From: Gaiella sp.
GTDB taxonomy: Bacteria; Actinomycetota; Thermoleophilia; Gaiellales; Gaiellaceae
Assembly: GCA_027493885.1 (NCBI GenBank)
Contig: JAOSJZ010000001.1
Location: forward strand, 2,040,622 to 2,104,621
Length of the DNA: 64,000 nt
Direction: 5' to 3'
Shown piece by piece: positions 9,894-26,908 of this stretch. The notes below the pieces were generated by a model. The model was not told where the DNA came from and made no database searches. It saw nothing but the letters and a program-made list of their open reading frames with translations. A program made the position numbers and the translations under genes. Position 1 is the stretch's first letter; every line of letters starts with the position of its first letter.

Positions 9894-9918
9894 CGATGGG
9901 CCGTGAAGGATTCGAACC
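9894..9918 (-). repeat. Partial att-like copy of the tRNA-Lys 3' end
   Basis: CGATGGGCCGTGAAGGATTC and the next five bases (25 bp in all) are identical to 26833-26857, the 3' end of tRNA-Lys plus flanking bases; the sequence then diverges. It lacks the rest of a tRNA and so is not a gene. A GTTGACCC arm-type sequence lies about 65 bp to its left, the same geometry as at the element's right end. Confidence 0.7.
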
Positions 9919-11732: not shown

Positions 11733-11775
11733 TGGGCCGTGAAGGATTCGAACCTTCGACCTTGGGATTAAGAGT
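11733..11775 (-). repeat. attL: 43-bp tRNA-Lys 3' duplicate
   Basis: TGGGCCGTGAAGGATTCGAA and the following 23 bases match 26836-26878 exactly, then diverge. It contains the T-arm and anticodon region but no 5' half, so it is an att site rather than a tRNA gene. Confidence 0.92.
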
Positions 11776-12061: not shown

Positions 12062-12691
12062 TTGATCTACCGCACCCGTATCTTCCTCGACTTCTGGAAC
12101 TTCCAGCTCGCCTGGAACTACAAGACGCTGGATGCGGCGTCGGGGGAGTCGCTTCGCTGCGACTGGACCGCGATCCCCCGCGTGCTCACCGCTGCCGCCG
12201 CGGAGGTGATCCAGAAGACGGACGCTGACGCTGGCCTGAACCTCGAAGAGACGCTTGTCCACGCGTCGTACAACCCGATCAGCGACTCCGATCGGCGGCT
12301 GAAGCAGTGGCTCGACAACTTCCTCGACAAGCAGGCGAGCTTCCGAGTGAAGCTCAGAGAGCGGCGTCCCCAGCCCACGAAGATCCGCTGTACGAGCTGT
12401 CAGCACGAGCTCGAGGCCTGCCCGAACTGCGGCGCTGGCTACGTCCGATACCCGGAGAAGGGCGTCGACTCGGCGCTCCTCGTCGACGTCCTGACGCTCG
12501 CGTGGGAAGGCGCGTATGAGGTAGCCGTGCTCGTCTCGAGCGACGCCGACTTGATTCCCGGGGTGGAGAAGGTCCAGGAGCGCGGGTTGAGGGTCATCAA
12601 CGCGACGTGGAGTGACCGGGGCCACCATCTGGCGAAGGCATGCTGGGGCTCATTCCGGCTCGATGACCTGGTCGACCAGTTGCGCAGGTGA
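12062..12691 (+). CDS. NYN-domain nuclease with embedded zinc ribbon
   Basis: A 209-residue NYN (PIN-like) protein. The motif RIFLDFWNFQLAW supplies the first acidic residue; KGVDSALLVDVLTLA and VAVLVSSDADLIPGVEKV supply the others. Between them lies CTSCQHELEACPNCG, a four-Cys zinc ribbon. Start choice: AGGAGG at 12049-12054 is 7 nt from a TTG at 12062, so the ORF-track start at 12014 (inside the hairpin) is rejected. NYN enzymes are metal-dependent ribonucleases, some with roles in RNA quality control or defence. First gene inside attL and convergent with the restriction operon, so it is probably cargo. Confidence 0.8.
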   Translation: MIYRTRIFLDFWNFQLAWNYKTLDAASGESLRCDWTAIPRVLTAAAAEVIQKTDADAGLNLEETLVHASYNPISDSDRRLKQWLDNFLDKQASFRVKLRERRPQPTKIRCTSCQHELEACPNCGAGYVRYPEKGVDSALLVDVLTLAWEGAYEVAVLVSSDADLIPGVEKVQERGLRVINATWSDRGHHLAKACWGSFRLDDLVDQLRR

Positions 12692-12707: not shown

Positions 12708-15203
12708 CTACTTGCCTTCGGTCTCGAAGAGCTGGCGCAGGTGTCCGTTGTCCTTGACCCCGCGCACCTTGTCGCGCACGTCGCCGTCGTTCACGTTGAG
12801 CCGAACTAGCTTGTCCTTCTCCTTGATGATCAGCTCGATGCGGCCGAAGCGGTCGCCGTGGGTCTTGGCGAAGTCGGCGAGGCCGGCGGCCTTGGCCGCG
12901 CTGTCGTCCTGAGTCAGGCGATGCGGCTCGAGGATGTCGACGACGACCCCTTCGCCCTGTTTGCGGAAGAAGAGGAAGTCGGGGTACATCGGCGTGTCGT
13001 CGCCGTCGTACTTGTAGGGCACCTTGAACGCCCAGCTCTTCCTTGGCACGTTCCTCAGCCAGCCGACGACATCGTCGCGGGCCAGCTCGGCCTCGACCGT
13101 TGCCCGCTCCCACTCGTTGACGTTGCAACTGAAGAGGCCCCTCTCGTCGGCGAACAGATGCCGGTCGTAGATGCTGTCCTCGTCGATAATCGACCCGTAG
13201 ACGTCCGGCAGCTCGAGCTCCTCGGGCTCGGGCTTGGCCGCCTGCCGGCGCAGCTTGCGGTAGGTCTCCCGGCGCGCCTCGGGCAGCTCGCGGATCGCCG
13301 CCTTGTGGTTTTCGGCCTCGGCGTTGAAGGTCTTGCCGGCGACCTCGTCGAGCGTCTTGACCGTCTTCTCGTCGTCAAGCAGAGCTGCCAGCTCGAGCTT
13401 GGCTGTCTTCGGCTTCACCTTGCCAGTCGCCACCCGCGCCTTCAGGTAGGCCGCGTTCAGGCCCTCGCCTAGCTTGCGCCCGGCCTGCGCATAGAGGTCG
13501 TCGATGTTCTGGCTGACGGCGGCGACCGACTCCGCCGTCTCGTCTGGCTTCTCCTCGTCGCCGCCGCGATAGACGACGCGGACGCCGCGCATGTCGATCT
13601 CGGCGCGCTCCTTGAGCGTCTTCTTGAATGTCGGGCTCTTCTCGAGCCGCTTGCGCTCGGCGTCAAGCGTGGACACGACGAGCTTGCGGAAGCGGTCAGC
13701 GGCCTCCTTGTCCAGCTTGTCGTAGGCCAGTGCCCGCCCGAGGCGGATCAGCCGACGGACGTTGCTGGCCTTCGACAAACGCTCGATGGCGTAGGTCGGC
13801 AGCGTCTCGGCCAGCTCGAACAGCTCGGCTTTGTCCTCGGCACGCGGCAGTTCGACGAGATCGTCGCCCTCGACGAACTCCGGCGCGACGGCGAGCCCGG
13901 TCTCGGGCTTGGAGAGGTAGTCGATGACCGTCTTCAATGCCTTCTTGTCGTAGTGCGGCAGGTACAAGGAGACGCCGTTCAAGAAGTCGTTGGAGGGGAT
14001 CGCCCGCGCGAGCGGCGTTCTCACCAACCGCCCGACGAGCTGGGCGATGCGCGTGTAGTCGAGCGCGCGGCGGAAGGACATGATCACCTCGGCGCGCGGG
14101 CAGTCCCAGCCGGTGTTCAGGCTCAGCTTGAAGAAGACGACGCGCAGGTTCTCGTCCTCCTGGATGTCCGCTGGCGACACGTAGCGCAGGGCGTGCTCCC
14201 CGACCTCGACGGCGTGGCCCTCCTGGAAGGCGTGTCCGACCTCCTCCTCGTCAAGGTCGCCGAGCACCTCTTCGAGCACGTCAAGCGCCTGCTCGAGGTC
14301 GGTCCTCGAGACGGTGCCGTCGGACGCGTCCTCGACCTGCACGACCAGGATCGGGTCGACCGCCGGCTCCTTCTCCCTGGCGCAGTAGGCCGCCCACTGC
14401 TCGGCATACGACTTCAGCTTCTCCGCCGAGGCCCTGAGCAGAGACCAGTCCGACGGCTGCTTGTCCGTTGGGTGGTAGAGGACGATCGTCTCCTTCAACA
14501 GGCCCGACACGCGCACGTCCTCGGGGTCGACCGTGATCTCCCGGCGCGTGCGCTTCGTGCCCTTGAGGAGCTCGACGAAGCGGTCGGGCGTCGCGCTAAT
14601 GCCGAGGATCAGCGGGACTGCGGGGATCTCGCCGGGCGAGCCCTTGATGAACTTCTGGGCGATCGTCGTCGCGTCCTCGGCCGCCTTGCCCTCGAGCATC
14701 CCCTTGTGTGCCTCGTCGAGGACGAGCCAGAAGCTGCCCGCCGACTGCCCGACGGTATTGGCGATCGTCTCCCAGATGGTGTGGTCGCGCTCGTCGGCCG
14801 GGGCGACCAGGTTGGTGCCCTTACCAAGCTTCTGGATGTTGAGGAAGTAGACCTTGCCCGGCTCGAGCCGCTCGGCGTCGAAGTCGGCGTCGATCGTCAC
14901 CAGGTCGTCGATGCCGAAGCTGGCCGAGGCGGCGAGGATCTTGCGCCGCGACTGCTCGTTGAGGTCGGGCTGGTCGGTCAGCCAGAGGAACGTCGCCTCG
15001 TCGTCGGGCGCGTGCTCGTCATCGCCCTCGACGATCCGCTCCATCAAGGCCGTCGCGATCACTGTCTTCCCCGAGCCGGTCGGCGAGGCGAGCACCAGCG
15101 CCTGCTCACGGCCGCCTTCCTCGACCTCGCGCTTGGCCGCTCGCGCCTCGACGTAGAGCTCGTCGACGGTGTTGGTCTGGAAGTCCTTGAGGGTCAGCTT
15201 CAC
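12708..15203 (-). CDS. res: Type III restriction enzyme, Res (helicase-nuclease) subunit
   Basis: An 831-residue SF2 protein. Walker A is LASPTGSGKT (near residue 42), motif II LVLDEAHKGM, motif III GISATPDR and motif VI RIAQLVGRLVRTP. The C-terminal third includes YPDFLFFRKQGEGVVVDILEPH, a PD-(D/E)xK nuclease core. Type III Res translocates or slides between two head-to-head sites and cuts DNA only in complex with Mod. The GTG start overlaps the mod stop, so both are in one operon read toward attL. Length is slightly below the usual 900-1,000 residues, but all key motifs are present. Confidence 0.9.
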   Translation of the reverse strand: MKLTLKDFQTNTVDELYVEARAAKREVEEGGREQALVLASPTGSGKTVIATALMERIVEGDDEHAPDDEATFLWLTDQPDLNEQSRRKILAASASFGIDDLVTIDADFDAERLEPGKVYFLNIQKLGKGTNLVAPADERDHTIWETIANTVGQSAGSFWLVLDEAHKGMLEGKAAEDATTIAQKFIKGSPGEIPAVPLILGISATPDRFVELLKGTKRTRREITVDPEDVRVSGLLKETIVLYHPTDKQPSDWSLLRASAEKLKSYAEQWAAYCAREKEPAVDPILVVQVEDASDGTVSRTDLEQALDVLEEVLGDLDEEEVGHAFQEGHAVEVGEHALRYVSPADIQEDENLRVVFFKLSLNTGWDCPRAEVIMSFRRALDYTRIAQLVGRLVRTPLARAIPSNDFLNGVSLYLPHYDKKALKTVIDYLSKPETGLAVAPEFVEGDDLVELPRAEDKAELFELAETLPTYAIERLSKASNVRRLIRLGRALAYDKLDKEAADRFRKLVVSTLDAERKRLEKSPTFKKTLKERAEIDMRGVRVVYRGGDEEKPDETAESVAAVSQNIDDLYAQAGRKLGEGLNAAYLKARVATGKVKPKTAKLELAALLDDEKTVKTLDEVAGKTFNAEAENHKAAIRELPEARRETYRKLRRQAAKPEPEELELPDVYGSIIDEDSIYDRHLFADERGLFSCNVNEWERATVEAELARDDVVGWLRNVPRKSWAFKVPYKYDGDDTPMYPDFLFFRKQGEGVVVDILEPHRLTQDDSAAKAAGLADFAKTHGDRFGRIELIIKEKDKLVRLNVNDGDVRDKVRGVKDNGHLRQLFETEGK

Positions 15204-17326
15204 AGCCGCACCTGGCGCCGGTAGTGGCGCAGGAAGTCGCGGTAGAGCATCAGCGTCTCGCGCCCCGCGCCGACCCGCTCGCGCATCTCGGCGTACGCCT
15301 CCTCGGAGTCGGTCACGAAGGCGACGTGGGTGACCGCGTCCTGCCCGGCCAGCGCCTCCTCGAAGTCGCGGAAGGCGTCTTCCTCGAACAGGACGGCGTA
15401 GCCGCAGTCGGGGTTGATCAGGAACGGCCCATCGACCTCGGGCCGCTCGCCGCGCCCGCCGGCAGCGAGCCAGAGCAGCGGGTGCACGGCGTCGAAGCAG
15501 GCGCCGAGCTCGACCTCCTCGCCGTCGAGGTAGTCGAGGCGGAAGAACTCGACGTTCTCATCGAAGCCCTCGGCGTAGGGCCGCTCGTCGAGGTAAGCGC
15601 CGGGCGCGTCGCTGCCGTCCTTGCGCTTGCCGGTTATGGCGGCCTCGACGCGCGGGCGGGTGACGGCCTCGAAGATTCCCCTGGCCTCGTACTCCGGCGT
15701 CCCGCGCAGGTGGCCCTCGCGCTTCAGCTTGGCGCGCGTCTCGGGGTCGACCTCGTTGTTGGTGACGAGGATGCAGCGACGCCGACCGGCGTCCTCGTGG
15801 TTCAAGAGCAGCGTTGCGTGCAGCGTCGTCCCCGAGCCGGCGAAGAAGTCGAGGATCAGCGCGTCGGGCTTGTCACCGACGACGGCGGCCAGAGTGTCGC
15901 GGGTCGCGTAGAGCGACTTCGGGAACGGGAAGATCCGCGCGCCGAGGAAGTCACCCAGCAGGTCGGCTCCATAGGCGCCGGCGTCGTGGCGGGTGCGGTG
16001 CCAAACCGTCTTCAAGCGGCGCGTCGGCGCTTCGACGTAGCGCATCTGGACGACGTTGCGCTCCTCGTCGTAGCCGGCGACCTCGATCACGCCCTCGGCG
16101 ACCTGCTTGAGGATCGCGCGGTAGGGATAGCTGAGCGCCCACGTCTTTCTCTCCGGGTCATGGCCGCCGAGGGCGACGTAGCCCTTCTTGGCGTACTCGG
16201 TCAGGGTCTTGTGGCCGAGGTACCACCGCCCCCACGAGCCGTCGGAGCGCACCGGCCAGACGGCGGTGTAGCCGTCGATCTTGGCGTCGAGGTCGGGCTC
16301 GGGCCACTCCTTGTCGCCGTTCGTCTCGACCGGCAGCAGCGGCTCGCCGGCGCGGACGACTGCGCCCTTCTCCTCGTCGATGAGGACGGGGTAGAACATG
16401 TTGGGCCGGTCTTGGCGGCGGGCGCCTTCACCAGAGTGCAACAGGCCCTGCCAGCGGACGCGCGGCATCTTGCCGGCGCCGTTGGCCTGCGCCTTGCCCT
16501 TCTGTGGCGTCAGCAGGTCATCGCCGCGCCCCTCGAACAGCATCCCCTCGGGGTAGACGAAGATCGCGTGCTCCTCGACGCGTGAGAGGCCGCCTTGGGT
16601 GACGCCCTTTGGGTTGATCACGATCGTGACCATCTGCCGGTTGCGGTCGGGGAACAGCTCTTCGAGTAAGAGGCCGAGGTGGTGCACCTCGTGCTCGTCG
16701 ATGGTCACGATCAGCACCCCGTCCGGCTTCAGCAGGCGCTTGGCCAACTTCAGCCGCTTCTCCATCATCGACAGCCACTTCGAGTGGCGGTAGGCGTCGT
16801 TCGCGTCGACGAAGCGGTTGTTGTACGTCCAGTCCTTCGCGCCGGTGTTGTAGGGCGGGTCGATGTAGATCAGGTCGACCTGCCGCTGGTAGACGAAGGT
16901 CAGAAGCTGGAGGACGTGGAAGTTCTCGCCGTCGATGACAGCGTGGTAGGGGCGCTCCTCCGAGCGAGTCGTCGCCCCGAGCGGAGTCAGGCCGACATCG
17001 GTCGGGTCGCCGAAGCGGCGAACGGTGAGGAGGTCGGCCACCGGCACTTGCCGCTCCTTGCCGTCCTTCAAGGAGAGGATCGTCGCCTGGTCGCCGTCGA
17101 TATCGACGAGGCGGAAGTCGTGGCCGTTGTTCGCCTCCTCTCGCGGGCGGACGTGATCGCCGGGCTTCAGACCGTCGCGGTCGCCTACGACGACCGTCTC
17201 CGGAAGGTGGCGCTCGTAGACCAGGCCAAAGCGCGTCCGGCCCTTGAGGGCCGCAACTTCAGCTTCGAGCTCGGCTCGGAGCTTCGCGTCGCTGACGTCT
17301 TCGAGTAACTGCTCTAGCTTTGCCAC
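15200..17326 (-). CDS. mod: Type III DNA methyltransferase, Mod subunit
   Basis: A 708-residue beta-class N6-adenine methyltransferase. The catalytic motif DLIYIDPPYNTG comes first (about residue 163), then the target-recognition region, then the SAM-binding motif ILDFFAGSGTT near residue 470. This order defines the beta class. An N-terminal helical segment (VAKLEQLLEDVSDAKL) probably mediates dimerisation. The GTG at 17326 begins this segment; the ORF-track extension is Pro/Arg-rich noncoding-like sequence. Mod gives the system its sequence specificity and protects host DNA. The target site cannot be read from the sequence. Confidence 0.92.
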   Translation of the reverse strand: MAKLEQLLEDVSDAKLRAELEAEVAALKGRTRFGLVYERHLPETVVVGDRDGLKPGDHVRPREEANNGHDFRLVDIDGDQATILSLKDGKERQVPVADLLTVRRFGDPTDVGLTPLGATTRSEERPYHAVIDGENFHVLQLLTFVYQRQVDLIYIDPPYNTGAKDWTYNNRFVDANDAYRHSKWLSMMEKRLKLAKRLLKPDGVLIVTIDEHEVHHLGLLLEELFPDRNRQMVTIVINPKGVTQGGLSRVEEHAIFVYPEGMLFEGRGDDLLTPQKGKAQANGAGKMPRVRWQGLLHSGEGARRQDRPNMFYPVLIDEEKGAVVRAGEPLLPVETNGDKEWPEPDLDAKIDGYTAVWPVRSDGSWGRWYLGHKTLTEYAKKGYVALGGHDPERKTWALSYPYRAILKQVAEGVIEVAGYDEERNVVQMRYVEAPTRRLKTVWHRTRHDAGAYGADLLGDFLGARIFPFPKSLYATRDTLAAVVGDKPDALILDFFAGSGTTLHATLLLNHEDAGRRRCILVTNNEVDPETRAKLKREGHLRGTPEYEARGIFEAVTRPRVEAAITGKRKDGSDAPGAYLDERPYAEGFDENVEFFRLDYLDGEEVELGACFDAVHPLLWLAAGGRGERPEVDGPFLINPDCGYAVLFEEDAFRDFEEALAGQDAVTHVAFVTDSEEAYAEMRERVGAGRETLMLYRDFLRHYRRQVRL

Positions 17327-17528
17327 GCGTCTTCTGTTTCTGTCCCGTTGCCGCCTACATCCTAGGAAGCGAGGCGGCGGGGGCTGGAAGCTTGCGATGC
17401 GCAGGCTGCTGGGCCCAGTGCCCGGTCGGCAGCGCGATTTCATCGAGCCGAGCGCGACATAGCCGACGCGAGGGTCCCCGGCCGGCGCGGAGCGCCGGCC
17501 GCTTGATCCTGTAGAGAAAGTTGGAACC
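17327..17528. promoter_or_regulatory. Divergent intergenic region between mod and the HD gene
   Basis: About 200 bp that must carry both promoters. It contains the GC-rich inverted repeat GGCCGGCGC/GCGCCGGCC around 17480-17500 and no gene. Confidence 0.4.
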
Positions 17529-18098
17529 ATGATCGAGCAGATGACGAGTCGCGCCGAGTCCGAGCTCATATGGGCGGAGAGGGCAGCTACGGAGCTCCTC
17601 TCACCGCTGGAGGCTCGCTGGCGGCATACGCTGCGAGTGGTCGATCGGGCGCAGTCGTTCCGGAACGTGCTAGATCGCGATGAGCTCGAGGTGCTGCTCG
17701 CGGCCGCTTACCTGCACGACGTCGGCTACGCGCCCGACCTGGCGGAGGTCGGGTTCCATCCGCTTGACGGCGCGCGGTTCGTGCGCGAAGCCGGGCACGA
17801 GCGACTCGCTGGCCTGGTCGCGCACCATTCCGCGTCCGACGCGGAGGCTATGGAGCGTGGCTTCACAGAGGAGCTCGCGGAGTTCCCTACCGAGGACTCG
17901 CTCGTCGCCCGGGCGTTGACGTACTGTGATCTGACAACGGGCCCGAACGGCGAGGAGGTCGGCGTCTCGGCTCGGCTCCTCGAGCTCGGGGGTCGCCTCG
18001 GCGAGGACGATCCGACGGTGCGGGCCGTGCGCCGCGAGGCGAGCCGGCTCGCGGCCGTCGTGGACGAGATGGAGTCGCTCCTCGCCGCCGGCCGGTGA
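17529..18098 (+). CDS. HD-domain phosphohydrolase
   Basis: A 189-residue HD-domain protein. Metal-binding motifs are RWRHTLRVVDRA (first His, near residue 36), AAYLHDVGYAP (the HD pair, near residues 63-64), and AHHSASDAE and LTYCDLTTGP (later His and Asp). This is the pattern of small HD nucleotidases, related to YfbR- and RelA-type enzymes, which hydrolyse nucleotide phosphates; the substrate is unknown. It lies between the restriction operon and the Nudix/HTH operon, convergent with the latter, and is probably element cargo. An in-frame ATG at 17541 is an alternative start. Confidence 0.8.
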   Translation: MIEQMTSRAESELIWAERAATELLSPLEARWRHTLRVVDRAQSFRNVLDRDELEVLLAAAYLHDVGYAPDLAEVGFHPLDGARFVREAGHERLAGLVAHHSASDAEAMERGFTEELAEFPTEDSLVARALTYCDLTTGPNGEEVGVSARLLELGGRLGEDDPTVRAVRREASRLAAVVDEMESLLAAGR

Positions 18099-19845: not shown

Positions 19846-21258
19846 ATGGCGAGCACGGGTGCAGCCGGGCGCGTCGTCCAGGCGCGGACGCTCGCGGAGG
19901 AGGCGTTGGTACTCCTCTGGGAGCGGGTCGGCGGGCTGTGGCGGTGGCGTGAGCTCACGCTCCCGCCTGCCGCCATCTACGTCGCGTACGCCACGGCAGG
20001 CGGCTACGCCGCCTCGTGGGTGGCAGCTGTGCTCAGCCTCGTGGTCGGGTCGGTTGGCCTTGTGCGGCCGAGCGTGCTCTCCCGGATCCCGAGGCGGTGC
20101 GCTGCGAGGAGCCGGTGGCATGGCCGGCTGCGCCGTTGGCCGCGCTTCTGCGTCGGTCTGCGCTGGTACCGCAAGCTCGAGGAAGGGGCGCTACTCGTCC
20201 CGGCTCTTCTCTCGTGGGAGGAACGGGCTGGTCAGGTAGCGGTCGAGGTGCGTCCCCTCCCCGAGCAGCATGCGAGCTCGTGGGACGCGATGGCGGACGC
20301 GTTCCGTCGCTTCCTCGGCGGGGCGAGTGTCGAGTGGCGCGAGTCGTTCGGGACGCTTCGGATCGTCGTCAGCCGCGTCGGGCTCCCAGACTTCCTCCCT
20401 TGGCACGCGCACGGTGCGCCAGAGGGCCGGCTCGTGCTCGGGCGGCGCCACGGTGGCGGCTCGCTCGCGATCGATGCGCGCACGACTCCGCACGTTCTGC
20501 TCGCAGGAGCAACAGGGAGCGGCAAGGGCGGCGCCATCAGGGCAGCCGCGGCCGCGGCGCTCCAGGGAGGCTGGCACCTGGTCGTGCTCGACCCGAAGGA
20601 AGCCGGCGAATACGCGTGGCTCGAGGACGTCCGCGTGCCGGTCGTGACGGAGCTACGCGAGCAGGTCGAGACGCTGGAGCACCTCGCGGCCGTGCGGCGG
20701 GCACGACAGGAGCTCGTGCGGCGCTACGGCGCCGACTCCTGGCTCGACCTCCCGGGCGAGACGCTCCAGATCTGGCGGCCGGTTCTCGTGGTCGTCGACG
20801 AGGCCGCCGACTTGCTCGCGGCGACGAAGGGCAAGAGCGGAGAGGACCGGCTCCGAGCGACCCTCCAGCACAAGGCGGGCGAGTTGATCGCCGAGCTCGC
20901 GCGCAAGGGAAGAAGCGCCGGTATCCACCTTCTGGTCGCTATCCAGAGACCGGAAACGGCTCAGCTCGGCGACCAGGGCGGCTCGCTGCGCAACAACCTG
21001 ACTGCACGGCTTGCGCTCGGAGCATTGGACGCCGACGGCCTGCGCATGCTCGGGATCTCCGCGACCGACCCAGTCGCGCTCGCGCTCGACGGCACTCCGG
21101 GCCGCGGGATCTGCGTGGGCTTTGCAGGCGACCCGCGTCCGAGTGTCTGCCAGGTCGCCTGGCTCGACCAAGAGCGAGCGGTGGCCGAAGTGACGCCCGC
21201 GTACATGCAGGGTCTCCATCTGATTCAGCCGCCGACGATCGCGGAGGACACAACGTGA
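19846..21258 (+). CDS. traSA: TraSA/FtsK-SpoIIIE-like DNA translocase
   Basis: A 470-residue FtsK-family protein. Hydrophobic segments near residues 45-75 (AIYVAYATAGGYAASWVAAVLSLVVGSVG) anchor it in the membrane. The ATPase has Walker A LLAGATGSGKGG near residue 220 (Gly after the Lys, a variant common in this subfamily) and Walker B PVLVVVDEAADLLA near residue 315. HLLVAIQRPETAQLGDQGGSLRNNLTARLAL follows. TraB/TraSA hexamers move double-stranded DNA between mycelial or adjacent cells at a clt site. The stop overlaps the GTG of repSA. Confidence 0.88.
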   Translation: MASTGAAGRVVQARTLAEEALVLLWERVGGLWRWRELTLPPAAIYVAYATAGGYAASWVAAVLSLVVGSVGLVRPSVLSRIPRRCAARSRWHGRLRRWPRFCVGLRWYRKLEEGALLVPALLSWEERAGQVAVEVRPLPEQHASSWDAMADAFRRFLGGASVEWRESFGTLRIVVSRVGLPDFLPWHAHGAPEGRLVLGRRHGGGSLAIDARTTPHVLLAGATGSGKGGAIRAAAAAALQGGWHLVVLDPKEAGEYAWLEDVRVPVVTELREQVETLEHLAAVRRARQELVRRYGADSWLDLPGETLQIWRPVLVVVDEAADLLAATKGKSGEDRLRATLQHKAGELIAELARKGRSAGIHLLVAIQRPETAQLGDQGGSLRNNLTARLALGALDADGLRMLGISATDPVALALDGTPGRGICVGFAGDPRPSVCQVAWLDQERAVAEVTPAYMQGLHLIQPPTIAEDTT

Positions 21259-22480
21259 CCCCGGTCGTCGCCGCGGCCGACGAGGTCCGACGCGCGGTCG
21301 GGTGCGTCGATCCCATCCGCCTGCGTGGCTGGCACGAGCGCATCGACCCGACGACGGGCGAGCTCCTCGCGAGGGTCATTTCCGCTCGACACCCCGGCGG
21401 CGTGCTCGTCGTGCCTTGCGGCGATCGCCGTTCGGCGAAGTGCCCTGCCTGCGCCGAGACGTACCGGCACGATGCGTTCCAGCTCGTCGTATCGGGGCTA
21501 CGTGGTGGCAAGGGCGTGCCCGACGCGGTTACCGGTCATCCCGCTGTCATGGCGACGCTCACCGCGCCCTCGTTCGGGCGCGTACACACGATCCGCGACC
21601 GCGACGGCCGCTGCCCCTGCGGCGACCGTCATTCGCCAGACGACGAGGTGCTCGGCACGCCTGTCGATCCGGGGTCATACCGCTACGAGGAGCAGGCGAC
21701 GTGGAACCACCTCGCCCCGGCGCTCTGGAAGCGAACGGTTCAGGCAATCCGACGGAGGCTTGCCCGGGAGCTCGGAGTGTCCCGCGACCGACTTGGCGAG
21801 CTCGTCCGCGTGCGCTTCGTGAAGGCCTCGGAGTTCCAGAAGCGAGGCGTCGTCCACTACCACGTCGTCGTTCGACTCGACGGAGCGGAGGATCCAGGAT
21901 CGGAGCCGCCGGCCAAATGCACTGCGGCCTTGCTTGCGCGTGTCGTGAGATCTGTCGTTCGCGACGTCGAGCTCCCCGCGCAGTCGTCTCAGAGCAGCGG
22001 ACCGCTGCGATGGGGACGTCAGAGCGAGATCGTTCGACTCGCGCCTGGCGAGGTGGGCCGCGCTGCGGGTACATCGCCAAGTACGCGACCAAGGCAACCG
22101 AGGCGGTCGCGGGTGGCGAGCTGATACCTCGAGTGCGTCGGCGACGCGAGATCGACCTTCTCCAGCTCCCCGCTCACGCGAGGCGGCTCGTCGAGGCCGC
22201 CTGGCATGTCGGCGATCGGACGGAGCTCGAGGGTGCACGGCGCTGGGCACACCAGTTCGGCTACGGCGGCCACACGCTGACGAAGAGCCGCGACTACTCG
22301 GTCACCTTCACAGTGCTTCGGGCAACTCGCGCCGCGTGGAATGCGGGGACGCCGATGATCTCCTGGACCTCGGCGATCACCCGCGGTACGCTCGTCTACG
22401 CGGGTCGTGGATACACGAAGCGAGACTCGGCTGTGCTCGCGCTGGTTGCAGCAGGAGCAAGCGCGCGGGGTTCACCGTGA
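21255..22480 (+). CDS. repSA: RepSA-type replication initiator, frameshifted
   Basis: The GTG at 21255 overlaps the traSA stop. The first frame encodes Cys pairs (CGDRRSAKCPACAETYRH and CPCGDRHS) and the HUH-like RGVVHYHVVVRLDG. Reading must shift one base near 22055-22065 to continue with CGYIAKYATKATE, which holds the Tyr of the RepSA family, and ends at 22480. The shift site is GGCCGCGCTGCGGG, not a long run, so it could be a real lesion or an error. RepSA starts rolling-circle replication of excised pSAM2-like elements. The 3' part runs through GGHTLTKSRDYSVTF, typical of the family. Confidence 0.82.
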
Positions 22481-22824
22481 GCGCGGGGGGACAGGTGCGG
22501 AGCCTTCGGGGCGTGGATCCTGCCGGCCGCCCGACTCTCGGTGGTTACGCCGGTACTGGCTCGGCCTTCGCGTTCGGAACACTCCTGGAGGAGCTCGCCG
22601 AGCGTATTGCGGAGCGACTCGCGGAGAAGCTCGAGGAGCGTCGGTGGGCGGCTCGCCAGGAAGCATGCGAGCTGTTGAGCGTCCAAGAGGCGGCTGAGGT
22701 GCTCCGCTGCAAGCCTCAGCGCGTCTACGACCTCCGGAGCGCCGGTCGACTTCCTCGCACGACGGAGGGCGGTCGCGCCGTCGTCCGCCGTACAGACCTC
22801 GAGCGACTCGTCGCGGAGGGGTAG
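22477..22824 (+). CDS. xis: Excisionase, MerR-type helix-turn-helix
   Basis: A 115-residue protein. The C-terminal 50 residues (LLSVQEAAEVLRCKPQRVYDLRSAGRLPRTTEGGRAVVRRTDLERLV) form the winged HTH seen in actinobacterial excisionases. A Glu/Arg-rich amphipathic helix (LLEELAERIAERLAEKLEERR) precedes it. The GTG overlaps the repSA stop (GTGA), and the integrase starts 2 nt after its stop. Xis bends att DNA and tips the integrase toward excision. The ORF-track start at 22336 lies inside repSA and is rejected. Confidence 0.85.
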   Translation: MSAGGQVRSLRGVDPAGRPTLGGYAGTGSAFAFGTLLEELAERIAERLAEKLEERRWAARQEACELLSVQEAAEVLRCKPQRVYDLRSAGRLPRTTEGGRAVVRRTDLERLVAEG

Positions 22825-22826
22825 AA

Positions 22827-23930
22827 ATGACGGCTCGGCTCAAGCGCACGCGCCATCCCGGCATTTACGAGACCGGGGAGTCGTACGTCGTCCGCTATCG
22901 GGATCAGAGCAGACGCCAGCGGCAGAAGACGTGCCGGACCCTGGACGAGGCCAAGCGATGGCGCGCGAAGGTCACGCTTAACCCTGCGGCCGGGTCGCCG
23001 CGCAGCGGGCCAACCGTCTCGGAGTACGCGGAGGACTGGCTGACGATGCTCGCGGGCGTACGGCCTGCGACTGCGATCGAGTATCGCCGCGACCTCGAGA
23101 ACTACGTCCTCGCGCGGGTCGGCGCAGTGCGGCTCGGGGCGCTGGATGCACGGCGGATCAGAAAGCTGGCGTACGAGCTCCGGGAGGAGAAGACGGCGCG
23201 CGCGCCGTCGGGGCGATCGTGGTCAACGGTGCGTCGGATCCTGGCGCCGTTTTCGGTGATGCTGAGCGCGGCAGCCGAGGATGGCGTGATCCCCGCGAGG
23301 CCCTGGCCTCGCCTGCCGACGCCGCGCCGCGAACCGACGAAGCGGCGCCATCTCTCGATCGAGGAGCTCGCCCGTCTGCTCGCGGCGCTTCCGACGCCGC
23401 AGGATCGTCTGCTCGTCCGCTTCCTGGCAGAGACGGGTCTGCGGATCTCCGAGCTCAAGGCGGTCCGGTGGGGCGACCTCGAGCTCGACGGCGACCCGGT
23501 CGTCTGCGTCAGGCGCCGGCATCGACTACTCGACGGCGAGCAGGAGACCAAGAGCGAACGGAGCTCGGGCAACGTCCCGATCACGGCCGAGCTCGCGCGC
23601 GAGCTCAAGGCGCATCGGCTCCGGAATGGCCAGCCGGGCCCGGAGAGGCTCGTCTTCACAGCCGGGGACGGCCGGCGGATTGACGAGGCGAACTACCGGC
23701 GGCGCACCCTCGACCCCGCATGCGTCCGCGCCGGCATCCCGCCGATCGGCTTCCACGTACTCCGCCACACGCACGGCTCGATCGTTGCCGCGGCGACAAG
23801 GGATGTCCGGGCCGTCCAGCGGCGACTGCGGCATGCGTCCGCGTCGTTCACGCTTGAGACGTACGTACACCTCCTCGACGATCGCGCGGGGGTTGACGCC
23901 GTACGACGAGCGCTGGATCAGACCCAGTAG
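22827..23930 (+). CDS. int: Tyrosine recombinase / integrase
   Basis: A 367-residue phage-type integrase. An N-terminal arm-binding AP2-like domain (GESYVVRYRDQSRRQRQKTCRTLDEAKRW) is followed by a SAM-like core-binding domain (VSEYAEDWLTML) and the catalytic domain. Catalytic residues are Arg in LAETGLRISELKAVRW, the HxxR box in FHVLRHTHGS, the RLRHAS region and the nucleophile in LETYVHLLDD. It catalyses integration into tRNA-Lys between the 43-bp repeats. Unusually, more than 2 kb of cargo separates the gene from attR. Confidence 0.92.
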   Translation: MTARLKRTRHPGIYETGESYVVRYRDQSRRQRQKTCRTLDEAKRWRAKVTLNPAAGSPRSGPTVSEYAEDWLTMLAGVRPATAIEYRRDLENYVLARVGAVRLGALDARRIRKLAYELREEKTARAPSGRSWSTVRRILAPFSVMLSAAAEDGVIPARPWPRLPTPRREPTKRRHLSIEELARLLAALPTPQDRLLVRFLAETGLRISELKAVRWGDLELDGDPVVCVRRRHRLLDGEQETKSERSSGNVPITAELARELKAHRLRNGQPGPERLVFTAGDGRRIDEANYRRRTLDPACVRAGIPPIGFHVLRHTHGSIVAAATRDVRAVQRRLRHASASFTLETYVHLLDDRAGVDAVRRALDQTQ

Positions 23931-23960
23931 ATGGAAAGCTGTGGCAGGACTTCCGATCCC

Positions 23961-23981
23961 TGTGATCTATACTGTGATCTA
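23961..23981 (+). promoter_or_regulatory. Promoter/operator of the TIGR04255 cassette
   Basis: TGTGATCTA occurs twice (23961-23969 and 23973-23981, 12-bp period). Between and within them is a perfect -10 box TATACT (23968-23973), 7 nt from the ATG at 23981, so the transcript is predicted to be leaderless. The repeats overlap the -10 box and start, a layout that would let a repressor block transcription directly. Confidence 0.6.
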
Positions 23982-24769
23982 TGGTTGGCCCGCAACTTCC
24001 TGCCGTGGACCACGAGCGCTTCGCGAACCCGCCTCTACGAGCGATGCTCGGCCAGGTTCAGTTCCCAGCGATCCTGCGCCTGCAGAAGGGAATGGAGGCG
24101 ATCGCCGACTTCCAGGAGGCGATCCGCGAGCTGTTCCCCTCGTTCGGTGTCGAGCATCAGGTCCAGATAGCGATTCCGGCTACGGCGACCGACGCGGAGC
24201 CGATGACCAGCCGGGCCGTTGCGTACCGATTCACGAACGAGGAAGAGACCTGGAGCGCTCTTTTGACAGCGAACGCCCTGACGCTGGAGGCCGTCGCGGG
24301 CGGCCGGTACAGCAGCTACACCGAGTTCTACGAGCTCTTCGGCAAGCTGTGGAACGCGACGCTTGAGCACCTGCGGCCAGGCAAGATCACCCGGCAGGGA
24401 CTGCGCTACGTCGACCACATCGAGGGCGAGCGACCACCAAGCGAGTGGACGGAATGGATCAATCCGGAACTGCTCGGCGGGTTGGCGGGCGAAGTCCTTA
24501 GCCCCGGCTTGGAGCGGGCCGTCTGCGAGATGGTCTACACGGACGGCACCAATCGCCTGGTCTTTCGCCACGGCCTCACCCAGGCAGGGCCGGAGAACGC
24601 ACAGGGGTACCTGCTCGATTTCGACGCGATCCACGGTGAGCCGGTCGACCCGACCGACATCGAAGCGCTGATGGCCCGCTTCGATGAGTCACACGAGATG
24701 CTCTATCGCTTCTTCCGATGGTGCGTGACCGATCGAGCTCTGGAGGAGTTCCGTCGTGCCGGCGACTGA
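23981..24769 (+). CDS. TIGR04255 family protein
   Basis: A 262-residue protein with the family's features: FANPPLRAMLGQVQFPAILRL at the start, FQEAIRELFPSF, then RFTNEEETWSALLTANALTLEAV, YSSYTEFYELFGKLW and the conserved GLRYVDHIEG. TIGR04255 proteins are widespread, biochemically uncharacterised and frequently encoded on mobile or defence-rich DNA. It opens a three-gene cassette inserted between int and attR and overlaps the next gene by 14 nt. The leaderless promoter with repeats lies directly at its start. Confidence 0.85.
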   Translation: MVGPQLPAVDHERFANPPLRAMLGQVQFPAILRLQKGMEAIADFQEAIRELFPSFGVEHQVQIAIPATATDAEPMTSRAVAYRFTNEEETWSALLTANALTLEAVAGGRYSSYTEFYELFGKLWNATLEHLRPGKITRQGLRYVDHIEGERPPSEWTEWINPELLGGLAGEVLSPGLERAVCEMVYTDGTNRLVFRHGLTQAGPENAQGYLLDFDAIHGEPVDPTDIEALMARFDESHEMLYRFFRWCVTDRALEEFRRAGD

Positions 24770-25481
24770 GACAGCGTGGAAGCCTTTCTCCTTGCGGGCT
24801 GACCCGCCGCCGTTTGTCTTCTTTCAGGACATCGACGTGCCGGGCGTCGTTCAGGGCCGGGAGCCGTCCCTCGTCAACAGCTACGACGTCAGGATCGTTG
24901 CGGCGGAGGCGGTGGCGACGACCGTGTTCTACGTCATCCCGGGGACGATCACTCTCCCGATCGCGCACGAGAGCCCCACCTGGCGGGCGTGGCTGCCCGA
25001 GGTCGACGCCAGGGTCTTCGGGACGGGCCTCCGCTCGCGCAGCACAATCGGGCAGCAGGTCGCAGAGATCCAGCGCATCACCGGACTCAGCGACAGTCAG
25101 CTCGCAGCCGCCTTCCCGCCCGGCCTATCTCGCGAGACCGTCAATCGCTGGCGCAACCGACCGAACCCAAACCTCCGCGAGGAGAACATCTACCGGCTCG
25201 GCCTCCTCCACGAGCTCGCGCAGCGGATGGAGGAAGCGGGGATCGACGCCCGCGTCTGGCTCCACCAAGCGGGTGAGGAGGACGAGACTCCCTACGCGCT
25301 CATCTGTCAGGGCCGTCTCGGCGATGTTCGCCGGGCGGTCGAGCTCGTCGCCACAGGCGCCGTCTCGCCCGCTGGGAGGATGGCCGCGGTCCGCGCGTAT
25401 CGTGAGCACGACGTCGTTGTCGAAGAAGACGACGAAGGCGACTGGACGTGGGGCGAGGCGGATGGAGAGACGGAAGAGTGA
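24756..25481 (+). CDS. HTH protein with MbcA/Xre-antitoxin-like C-terminus
   Basis: A 241-residue protein in three parts. Residues 1-90 are beta-rich (FVFFQDIDVPGV, YDVRIVAAEAVATTVFYVIPGTI). A central helix-turn-helix follows (QQVAEIQRITGLSDSQLAAAF, SRETVNRWRNRPN, LREENIYRLGLLHELAQRM). The C-terminal GIDARVWLHQAG plus YALICQGRLGDVRRAVELV resembles the toxin-binding region of MbcA/ParS-type antitoxins. A highly acidic tail ends the protein. It overlaps the TIGR04255 gene and sits 3 nt before the unknown third gene, so it may act as an antitoxin or a repressor of this cassette. Confidence 0.72.
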   Translation: MPATETAWKPFSLRADPPPFVFFQDIDVPGVVQGREPSLVNSYDVRIVAAEAVATTVFYVIPGTITLPIAHESPTWRAWLPEVDARVFGTGLRSRSTIGQQVAEIQRITGLSDSQLAAAFPPGLSRETVNRWRNRPNPNLREENIYRLGLLHELAQRMEEAGIDARVWLHQAGEEDETPYALICQGRLGDVRRAVELVATGAVSPAGRMAAVRAYREHDVVVEEDDEGDWTWGEADGETEE

Positions 25482-25484
25482 CCG

Positions 25485-26168
25485 GTGAACTGGCTACCAG
25501 ACGACTTCTTCATTGGTCATCCCGCTCCGCCTCAAAGTAGCCCCACTCGCCCTCTCGGCCAGGGGGATGTCTTCCTCGAGGTGCCCGTTGCTGGCCGCAC
25601 AGGCGTCAGGAACGGGCAGCCAGGGCTGAGGGCGAAGCTCGAGAACGTCATCGTCGTCGGCAGCTCTTGCGGCATTAGGAAGGAAGGCGGTGAACTGAAC
25701 GACGTCATCCACGTGGCCCCGATCAAGCACCTCGCATCTATGGCGCCTGGCTGGGGGCCTCCGTGGAGCGGGTGGCTGCACGTCCTGCCCCTGCCGGGGC
25801 TCGAGATCAACGGGGAGGGGGACTGGGCAGCCAATCTCGCACGCATCGGCCTCGCCGGTACGGACACGCTGACCGCGGCACACCGCGTCGCGTCCGTGTC
25901 GCAGCAAGGGATGGAGGCGCTGAAGGCGCGTGTCGCCACCTACTTCGTCCGCGCCGATATCCCCACGACGGTCCTTGGCGTCGGTGCACACGAGGAGTGG
26001 CACGAGCTGGACTTGTGGGAGCGTTGGGTGGAGCGGACGGGCGCTCAGGACGGGTTCCAGCAGTGGCTGGACGAGGAAAACCCGAACTACCCGGGGCGAC
26101 GACGACGGGACACTCTTTACGACGATTTGGCCGGCGTACGTCAGCAACTGGACGAGACGACCGCATAG
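25485..26168 (+). CDS. Uncharacterised third gene of the TIGR04255 cassette
   Basis: A 227-residue soluble protein of no recognised family. The N-terminal half has LGQGDVFLEVPVAG and ENVIVVGSSCGIRKEGGELNDVIHVAPIKHL, a strand-rich pattern with one conserved-looking Cys. It is reminiscent of small QGD..VP...S.(D)C(D)I proteins I cannot name. The C-terminal half is helical and charged (EEWHELDLWERWVERTG, FQQWLDEENPNYPG, RRDTLYDDLAGVRQQLDE). The GTG start is 3 nt after the HTH gene stop. By position it is the candidate effector, but no catalytic motif is certain. Confidence 0.6.
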   Translation: MNWLPDDFFIGHPAPPQSSPTRPLGQGDVFLEVPVAGRTGVRNGQPGLRAKLENVIVVGSSCGIRKEGGELNDVIHVAPIKHLASMAPGWGPPWSGWLHVLPLPGLEINGEGDWAANLARIGLAGTDTLTAAHRVASVSQQGMEALKARVATYFVRADIPTTVLGVGAHEEWHELDLWERWVERTGAQDGFQQWLDEENPNYPGRRRRDTLYDDLAGVRQQLDETTA

Positions 26169-26835: not shown

Positions 26836-26908
26836 TGGGCCGTGAAGGATTCGAACCTTCGACCTTGGGATTAAGAGTCCCCTGCTCTACCAGCTGAGCT
26901 AACGGCCC
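26836..26908 (-). tRNA. tRNA-Lys(CTT)
   Basis: The minus strand reads GGGCCGT...ACGGCCC (7-bp acceptor stem) with discriminator A. The D-arm is GCTCAGCTGGTAGAGC, the anticodon loop CTCTTAA (anticodon CTT) and the T-arm GAAGGTTCGAATCCTTC. No CCA is encoded. The last 43 bp at the 3' side (26836-26878) are the attR core and recur exactly at attL, so integration kept the tRNA intact. Confidence 0.95.

Follow-up and report, generated by a model that had tools for sequence, protein, structure and literature searches.

A conserved cassette of TIGR04255, Xre/MbcA-like and MazF-fold genes on an integrative element of Gaiella sp. as a candidate three-component toxin-antitoxin-type module

A cassette on an integrative element of Gaiella sp. 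raises the question whether three genes next to an integrase form a new toxin-antitoxin or defence system. The window, meaning the whole stretch of 64,000 nucleotides that was analysed, had been predicted to hold three overlapping or abutting genes between int and attR, and this was confirmed (int 22827-23930, attR 26836-26878). P1 and P2 overlap by 14 nt, P2 and P3 are separated by a 3-nt gap, and all three genes lie on the + strand with a coding-like base composition. The cassette consists of the following features:

23960..23982, + strand, putative operator/promoter: CTGTGATCTAT twice at a 12-bp spacing, and a -10-like TATACT at 23968-23973
23981..24769, + strand, P1: TIGR04255 family protein of 262 aa (NCBIfam E 1.1e-42)
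24756..25481, + strand, P2: HTH protein whose C-terminal region is Xre/MbcA/ParS-like; putative antitoxin-repressor
25485..26168, + strand, P3: predicted MazF-fold protein, extended at its C-terminus by helices; putative toxin

P1 matches TIGR04255 with 146.6 bits against a curated cut-off of 30, over model positions 1-252 of 252. To our knowledge TIGR04255 is a sporadic family without an assigned function, and no mention of the name 'TIGR04255' was found in the literature searched, which left out most subscription papers. P2 and P3 stayed below every cut-off in Pfam, NCBIfam, PADLOC and PHROGs, and PADLOC (2023) holds no model for P1, P2 or P3.

Do the three genes belong together? When 397 genomes of the phylum were searched with P3 alone as query, it was found in six, the window's genome and five others, and at 5/5 of the other matches a TIGR04255 gene lay upstream with an HTH gene in between. 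TIGR04255 itself was present in 26/299 genomes. As single-sequence queries the window P3 and P2 gave no match in genome contigs or plasmids. The P3 family alignment as query retrieved 49 loci from a sample of one genome per species (85,462 species); every locus with a named lineage is actinobacterial, and two are from 'bacterium' MAGs. The trio is complete, in the same order and on one strand in 46 of the 49, and P2 and P3 are both present in 48, the locus L094 being a fragment. Thus candidate toxin and antitoxin are conserved as a pair in one short operon, as in type II toxin-antitoxin systems (48/49), and gene borders mostly overlap by 4 to 20 nt or lie a few nt apart. Protein distances co-vary over 28 complete sets (Mantel r 0.89 for P1-P2, 0.89 for P1-P3 and 0.92 for P2-P3; the observed r was reached by 0/2000 permutations), a correlation to which shared host descent can contribute too. 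The cassette at 23981-26168 is a genuine conserved gene unit. Co-occurrence of the three families beside integrases had been proposed as a check: the trio itself recurs, and a tyrosine recombinase was found within 6 kb at 5/49 loci. None of the viral contigs or phage records searched yielded a P3 relative.

The structure of the third protein, whose prediction had been proposed as a check, points to a known toxin superfamily. The AlphaFold model of P3 (pLDDT 87.7, pTM 0.85) matched MazF in the PDB by Foldseek with E 5e-6, probability 1.00 and TM by target of about 0.7, and all 50 PDB matches listed for it are MazF-type toxins. The P3 profile aligned to PemK/MazF by hhalign with scores of 28.8-31.0 against a maximum of 17.9 in 100 column shuffles. 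Both model and profile therefore place P3 in the MazF/PemK superfamily fold, while Pfam PemK_toxin (PF02452) matched neither the window P3 nor the family members. The columns that align, over a distant alignment, with the MazF catalytic Arg (in 'RP') and Thr are not conserved in 41 P3 proteins; thus P3 is not predicted to act as an RNase, and its barrel may have a different function. The family has its own invariant residues (R22, G27, D28, R65, W94, R134, R149, R156 and E174, with C62 nearly so) and a near-invariant HPC..R motif, which is intact, for instance, in the Leifsonia copy (L055). The window P3 departs from near-invariant positions by H60S, P61S, T26Q and Q148A, with SSC replacing HPC, and judged by these substitutions this copy may have diverged or become weaker. 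A reading of P3 as a RES or housekeeping protein was rejected, having no support in Pfam or NCBIfam; the finding that had been named as damaging to the original prediction, a third gene from an unrelated housekeeping family, thus did not appear.

The C-terminal part of the middle protein had been thought to resemble the toxin-binding region of antitoxins, and profile comparison bears this out. The best PDB match of the P2 family profile is MbcA (6fkg_C, E 0.0035). Against RES-linked Xre antitoxins, a comparison set taken mostly from loci with a RES gene, hhalign gave E 5.8e-12 and a score of 76.6 (shuffle maximum 19) over 87 columns, which run from the HTH into the first part of the toxin-binding region ('W..P ... 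TPLDLL'). P2 therefore combines an HTH with a C-terminal region related to the toxin-binding one of MbcA, as Xre/MbcA/ParS antitoxins do. On the P2 loci Pfam Xre_MbcA_ParS_C (PF09722) stayed below its cut-off and did not rise above 24.5 bits, the best being that of genome G778 (E 0.19). The N-terminal region of the window P2 differs from that of the family, and this copy may be divergent.

Just two copies of TGTGATCTA exist in the whole window, both upstream of P1 (at 23961 and at 23973, with a 12-bp spacing), where 0.01 occurrences are expected by chance. The TATACT box overlaps the repeat and ends 7 nt before the P1 ATG, a position consistent with a leaderless start, and a search for a complete sigma-70 site, -35 box included, was negative. 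The layout recurs across the phylum. A 12-bp period upstream of P1 reached z 12.2 against shuffles in 40 non-redundant upstream regions; in 45 loci, which include some close relatives, GTT-N9-GTT-N9-GTA was present upstream of P1 in 21 (0.02 expected) and a TAnnnT box starting at -13 or -12 from the start codon in 31 (about 0.8 expected per offset). The upstream sequence of the window differs from the phylum pattern, with the 12-bp period and the box position kept. The direct repeat with a -10-like box embedded in it is thus confirmed, and the conserved layout supports leaderless transcription and a repressor covering the -10 box; the promoter is likely leaderless and self-repressed. P2 would be the binder of the 12-bp-period repeats.

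Outside the narrow P3 family the third gene varies. Of the 29 TIGR04255 loci that a class survey with narrow and wide P3 profiles covered in 26 genomes, 20 carry a P3-like gene in third place, one has a RES gene, two are cut by a contig end and six have neither, the wide profile being partly trained on six of the 29 surveyed loci and the assignment of L140 being weak. The wide kind ('QGD ... QTCDIV ... ADL') aligned to narrow P3 with a score of 41 (maximum of 80 shuffles, 21.6) and had no direct profile match to PemK. The RES-domain gene (G553:C143:42790-43260) stands third behind TIGR04255 and an Xre-like HTH gene; its score in the genome search is marginal, 23.5 bits against a cut-off of 23.2, and it was missed by Pfam hmmscan and by NCBIfam. 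In an independent tblastn search of plasmids, Sinorhizobium P1 and P3 matched 11 and 8 records, six of them common to both, and in these six about 620-695 bp lie between P1 and P3, which leaves room for an HTH gene. By profile the trio was found on held-out plasmids of Paenarthrobacter, Rhizobium etli, Sphingomonas, Gloeocapsopsis and Acinetobacter, the last being the weakest. Thus looser relatives of the trio occur on alphaproteobacterial, gammaproteobacterial, cyanobacterial and actinobacterial plasmids, and the Rhodococcus pNAPH plasmid has the narrow form. The trio rule has exceptions, since on a Rhizobium sp. CB3060 plasmid (L127) TIGR04255 is followed by two genes that match neither the P2 nor the P3 profile; this locus adjoins a multiubiquitin / ThiF / DUF6527 cluster. 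At another locus (L146, G439:C1:3707300-3711800) the gene for a three-Cys-motif partner protein, TcmP, lies downstream of TIGR04255 (TIGR04474, 8.2e-25).

The mobile setting of the window copy is plain. Its host is an actinomycete-type integrative element of 15.1 kb, bounded by 43-bp att repeats that are 100% identical to each other, and every component of a pSAM2-type integrative element (AICE) was found in it, namely tRNA att repeats, tyrosine integrase, Xis, RepSA and an FtsK-type translocase:

11733..11775, attL: 43-bp copy of the tRNA-Lys gene 3' end
19846..21258, + strand, FtsK/SpoIIIE-type DNA translocase (Pfam FtsK_SpoIIIE 2.5e-19)
21255..22480, + strand, pSAM2-type replication initiator RepSA (Pfam RepSA 2.1e-83 on 21255-22061)
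22480..22824, + strand, excisionase-like HTH_17 protein (Pfam 4.6e-12)
22827..23930, + strand, tyrosine integrase of the element (Pfam Phage_integrase 5.3e-20)
26836..26878, attR: right end of the element, tRNA-Lys 3' end (tRNA gene 26836-26908, - strand)

It should be noted here that the RepSA reading frame (21255-22480 of the window) shifts near 22060; the replication initiator looks broken, or there is an assembly error at that point. The cargo of the element also includes a type III restriction-modification pair at 12708-17569 on the - strand (ResIII 4.4e-12; N6_N4 methylase 4.6e-21), an HD protein and, next to attL on its inner side (12062-12688), an NYN-domain protein that has a zinc-ribbon-like stretch. 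A third att/tRNA-Lys copy, of 25 bp, lies at 9894-9918, 1.8 kb left of attL, and may be what is left of an earlier or a tandem element.

Our data favour, as a fairly probable explanation, a three-component toxin-antitoxin-type module on an integrative element, in which P3 would be the toxin, P2 both antitoxin and repressor, and P1 an accessory. The P3 fold, the antitoxin family of P2, the operon coupling, the operator layout and the marginal RES swap in G553 together point to a module of this type. The gene unit, the P3 fold, the P2 family, the conserved promoter layout and the mobile setting are computed, and from them we infer toxicity, neutralisation and repression. P3, with its MazF/CcdB-type barrel and helical extension, would be a growth-inhibiting effector bound by the C-terminal region of P2, and P2, alone or in complex, would repress the operon from the repeats of 12-bp period that cover the -10 box. 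The regular third partner, P1, would most likely serve as a sensor, a stabiliser or a co-inhibitor and decide when P2 releases P3. The purpose of the module would be to stabilise its element or to abort phage infection; this purpose and the role of P1 are inferred in the same way. The idea of a toxin-antitoxin candidate thus stands on co-occurrence, the P2 family, the toxin-superfamily fold of P3, the promoter layout and one RES swap. In one respect it is amended: the original prediction allowed that the HTH protein restrains either the TIGR04255 protein or the third one, and P3 is the more likely of the two.

A dedicated anti-phage system overlaps this explanation; what sets it apart is its purpose and the part played by P1, which would recognise a phage product or event, while P2 checks the operon and P3, and P3 stops the growth of phage or host. 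The type III restriction-modification pair on the same element would argue for it, as may the neighbours of related loci, among them type I restriction parts, SoFic and further PADLOC families. A patchy spread (P3 in six and TIGR04255 in 26 of the genomes searched for each) fits as well, and so does the known toxin-antitoxin-chaperone system that uses its third protein as a phage sensor (PMC11618068). However, such defence neighbourhoods are common to many toxin-antitoxin modules, and we regard a dedicated anti-phage role as a serious possibility that falls somewhat short of even.

The roles of P1 and P3 could also be exchanged: the toxicity would then lie in P1, and P3 would bind RNA or DNA as a cofactor, its MazF-like barrel having lost catalysis. 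Of the three proteins P1 is the one found most widely, its place is kept with various third genes, including RES and the wider P3 relatives, and the lack of conserved MazF catalytic residues in P3 would fit. The model of P1 (pLDDT 87.4) consists of two similar alpha-beta halves, each built as strand-helix-strands-helix, and its topology may recall TBP and AdoMetDC. It had no confident structural match in the PDB; a known fold was rejected for P1, with best PDB TM-scores below 0.3, and in a viral structure library the matches were weak and TBP-like, apart from one unnamed protein at 0.45-0.55. This exchange of roles is improbable, as the model bears no resemblance to a known toxin and the one locus with RES in third place retains P1 and the Xre-like HTH gene, which suggests that the third position is the toxin slot. 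A toxin-free regulatory or maintenance operon of mobile elements, in which P2 controls element genes and P1 and P3 are structural or accessory, would suit the integrases, relaxases and transfer genes that it adjoins on plasmids and elements, but it is quite unlikely in view of the scarcity of nearby tyrosine recombinases noted above and of a MazF fold, an Xre/MbcA-type antitoxin and an operator over the promoter, which is standard toxin-antitoxin anatomy.

How does the favoured toxin-antitoxin-type module compare with known systems? It is closest in its regulator to the Xre-RES systems (MbcTA, ParST and the Xre-RES of P. putida), sharing an HTH antitoxin of the Xre/MbcA/ParS superfamily, a short operon and likely autorepression at promoter repeats. 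It differs from them in a toxin candidate of MazF fold rather than RES, except in G553, and in an extra gene, TIGR04255, in first place. In P. putida the Xre antitoxin complex mediates autorepression and binds an imperfect inverted repeat (PMC12204516), whereas the putative operator of the cassette is a 12-bp tandem direct repeat. With the MazEF / PemIK / CcdAB superfamily it would share the modelled MazF barrel of P3, but its antitoxin candidate is of Xre/MbcA and not of MazE/CcdA type. In P3, moreover, the catalytic Arg/Thr of MazF are not conserved, the C-terminus is extended by helices, and the family shows invariant G-D, R, W and E residues of its own together with the near-invariant HPC..R. 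Tripartite toxin-antitoxin-chaperone systems (TAC, CmdTAC) likewise have three genes for a toxin, an antitoxin and a third partner, and in CmdTAC the third protein can sense phage (PMC11618068); in contrast to them, a SecB-like chaperone was not among the PDB matches listed for the P1 model.

A bolder extension, which we put forward tentatively, gives TIGR04255 proteins the part of trigger or sensor in a hitherto undescribed immunity or addiction system that has three components, spans phyla and can exchange its toxin, the latter being either RES or a Cys-containing MazF-fold protein with non-MazF chemistry or another target. By belonging to a conserved trio, alongside an Xre-type antitoxin and a predicted MazF-fold protein, the orphan family TIGR04255 becomes a testable system. 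P3 would add to the MazF fold a branch without the MazF active site, and the cassette would newly join those toxin-antitoxin modules that have a third component, here possibly a sensor.
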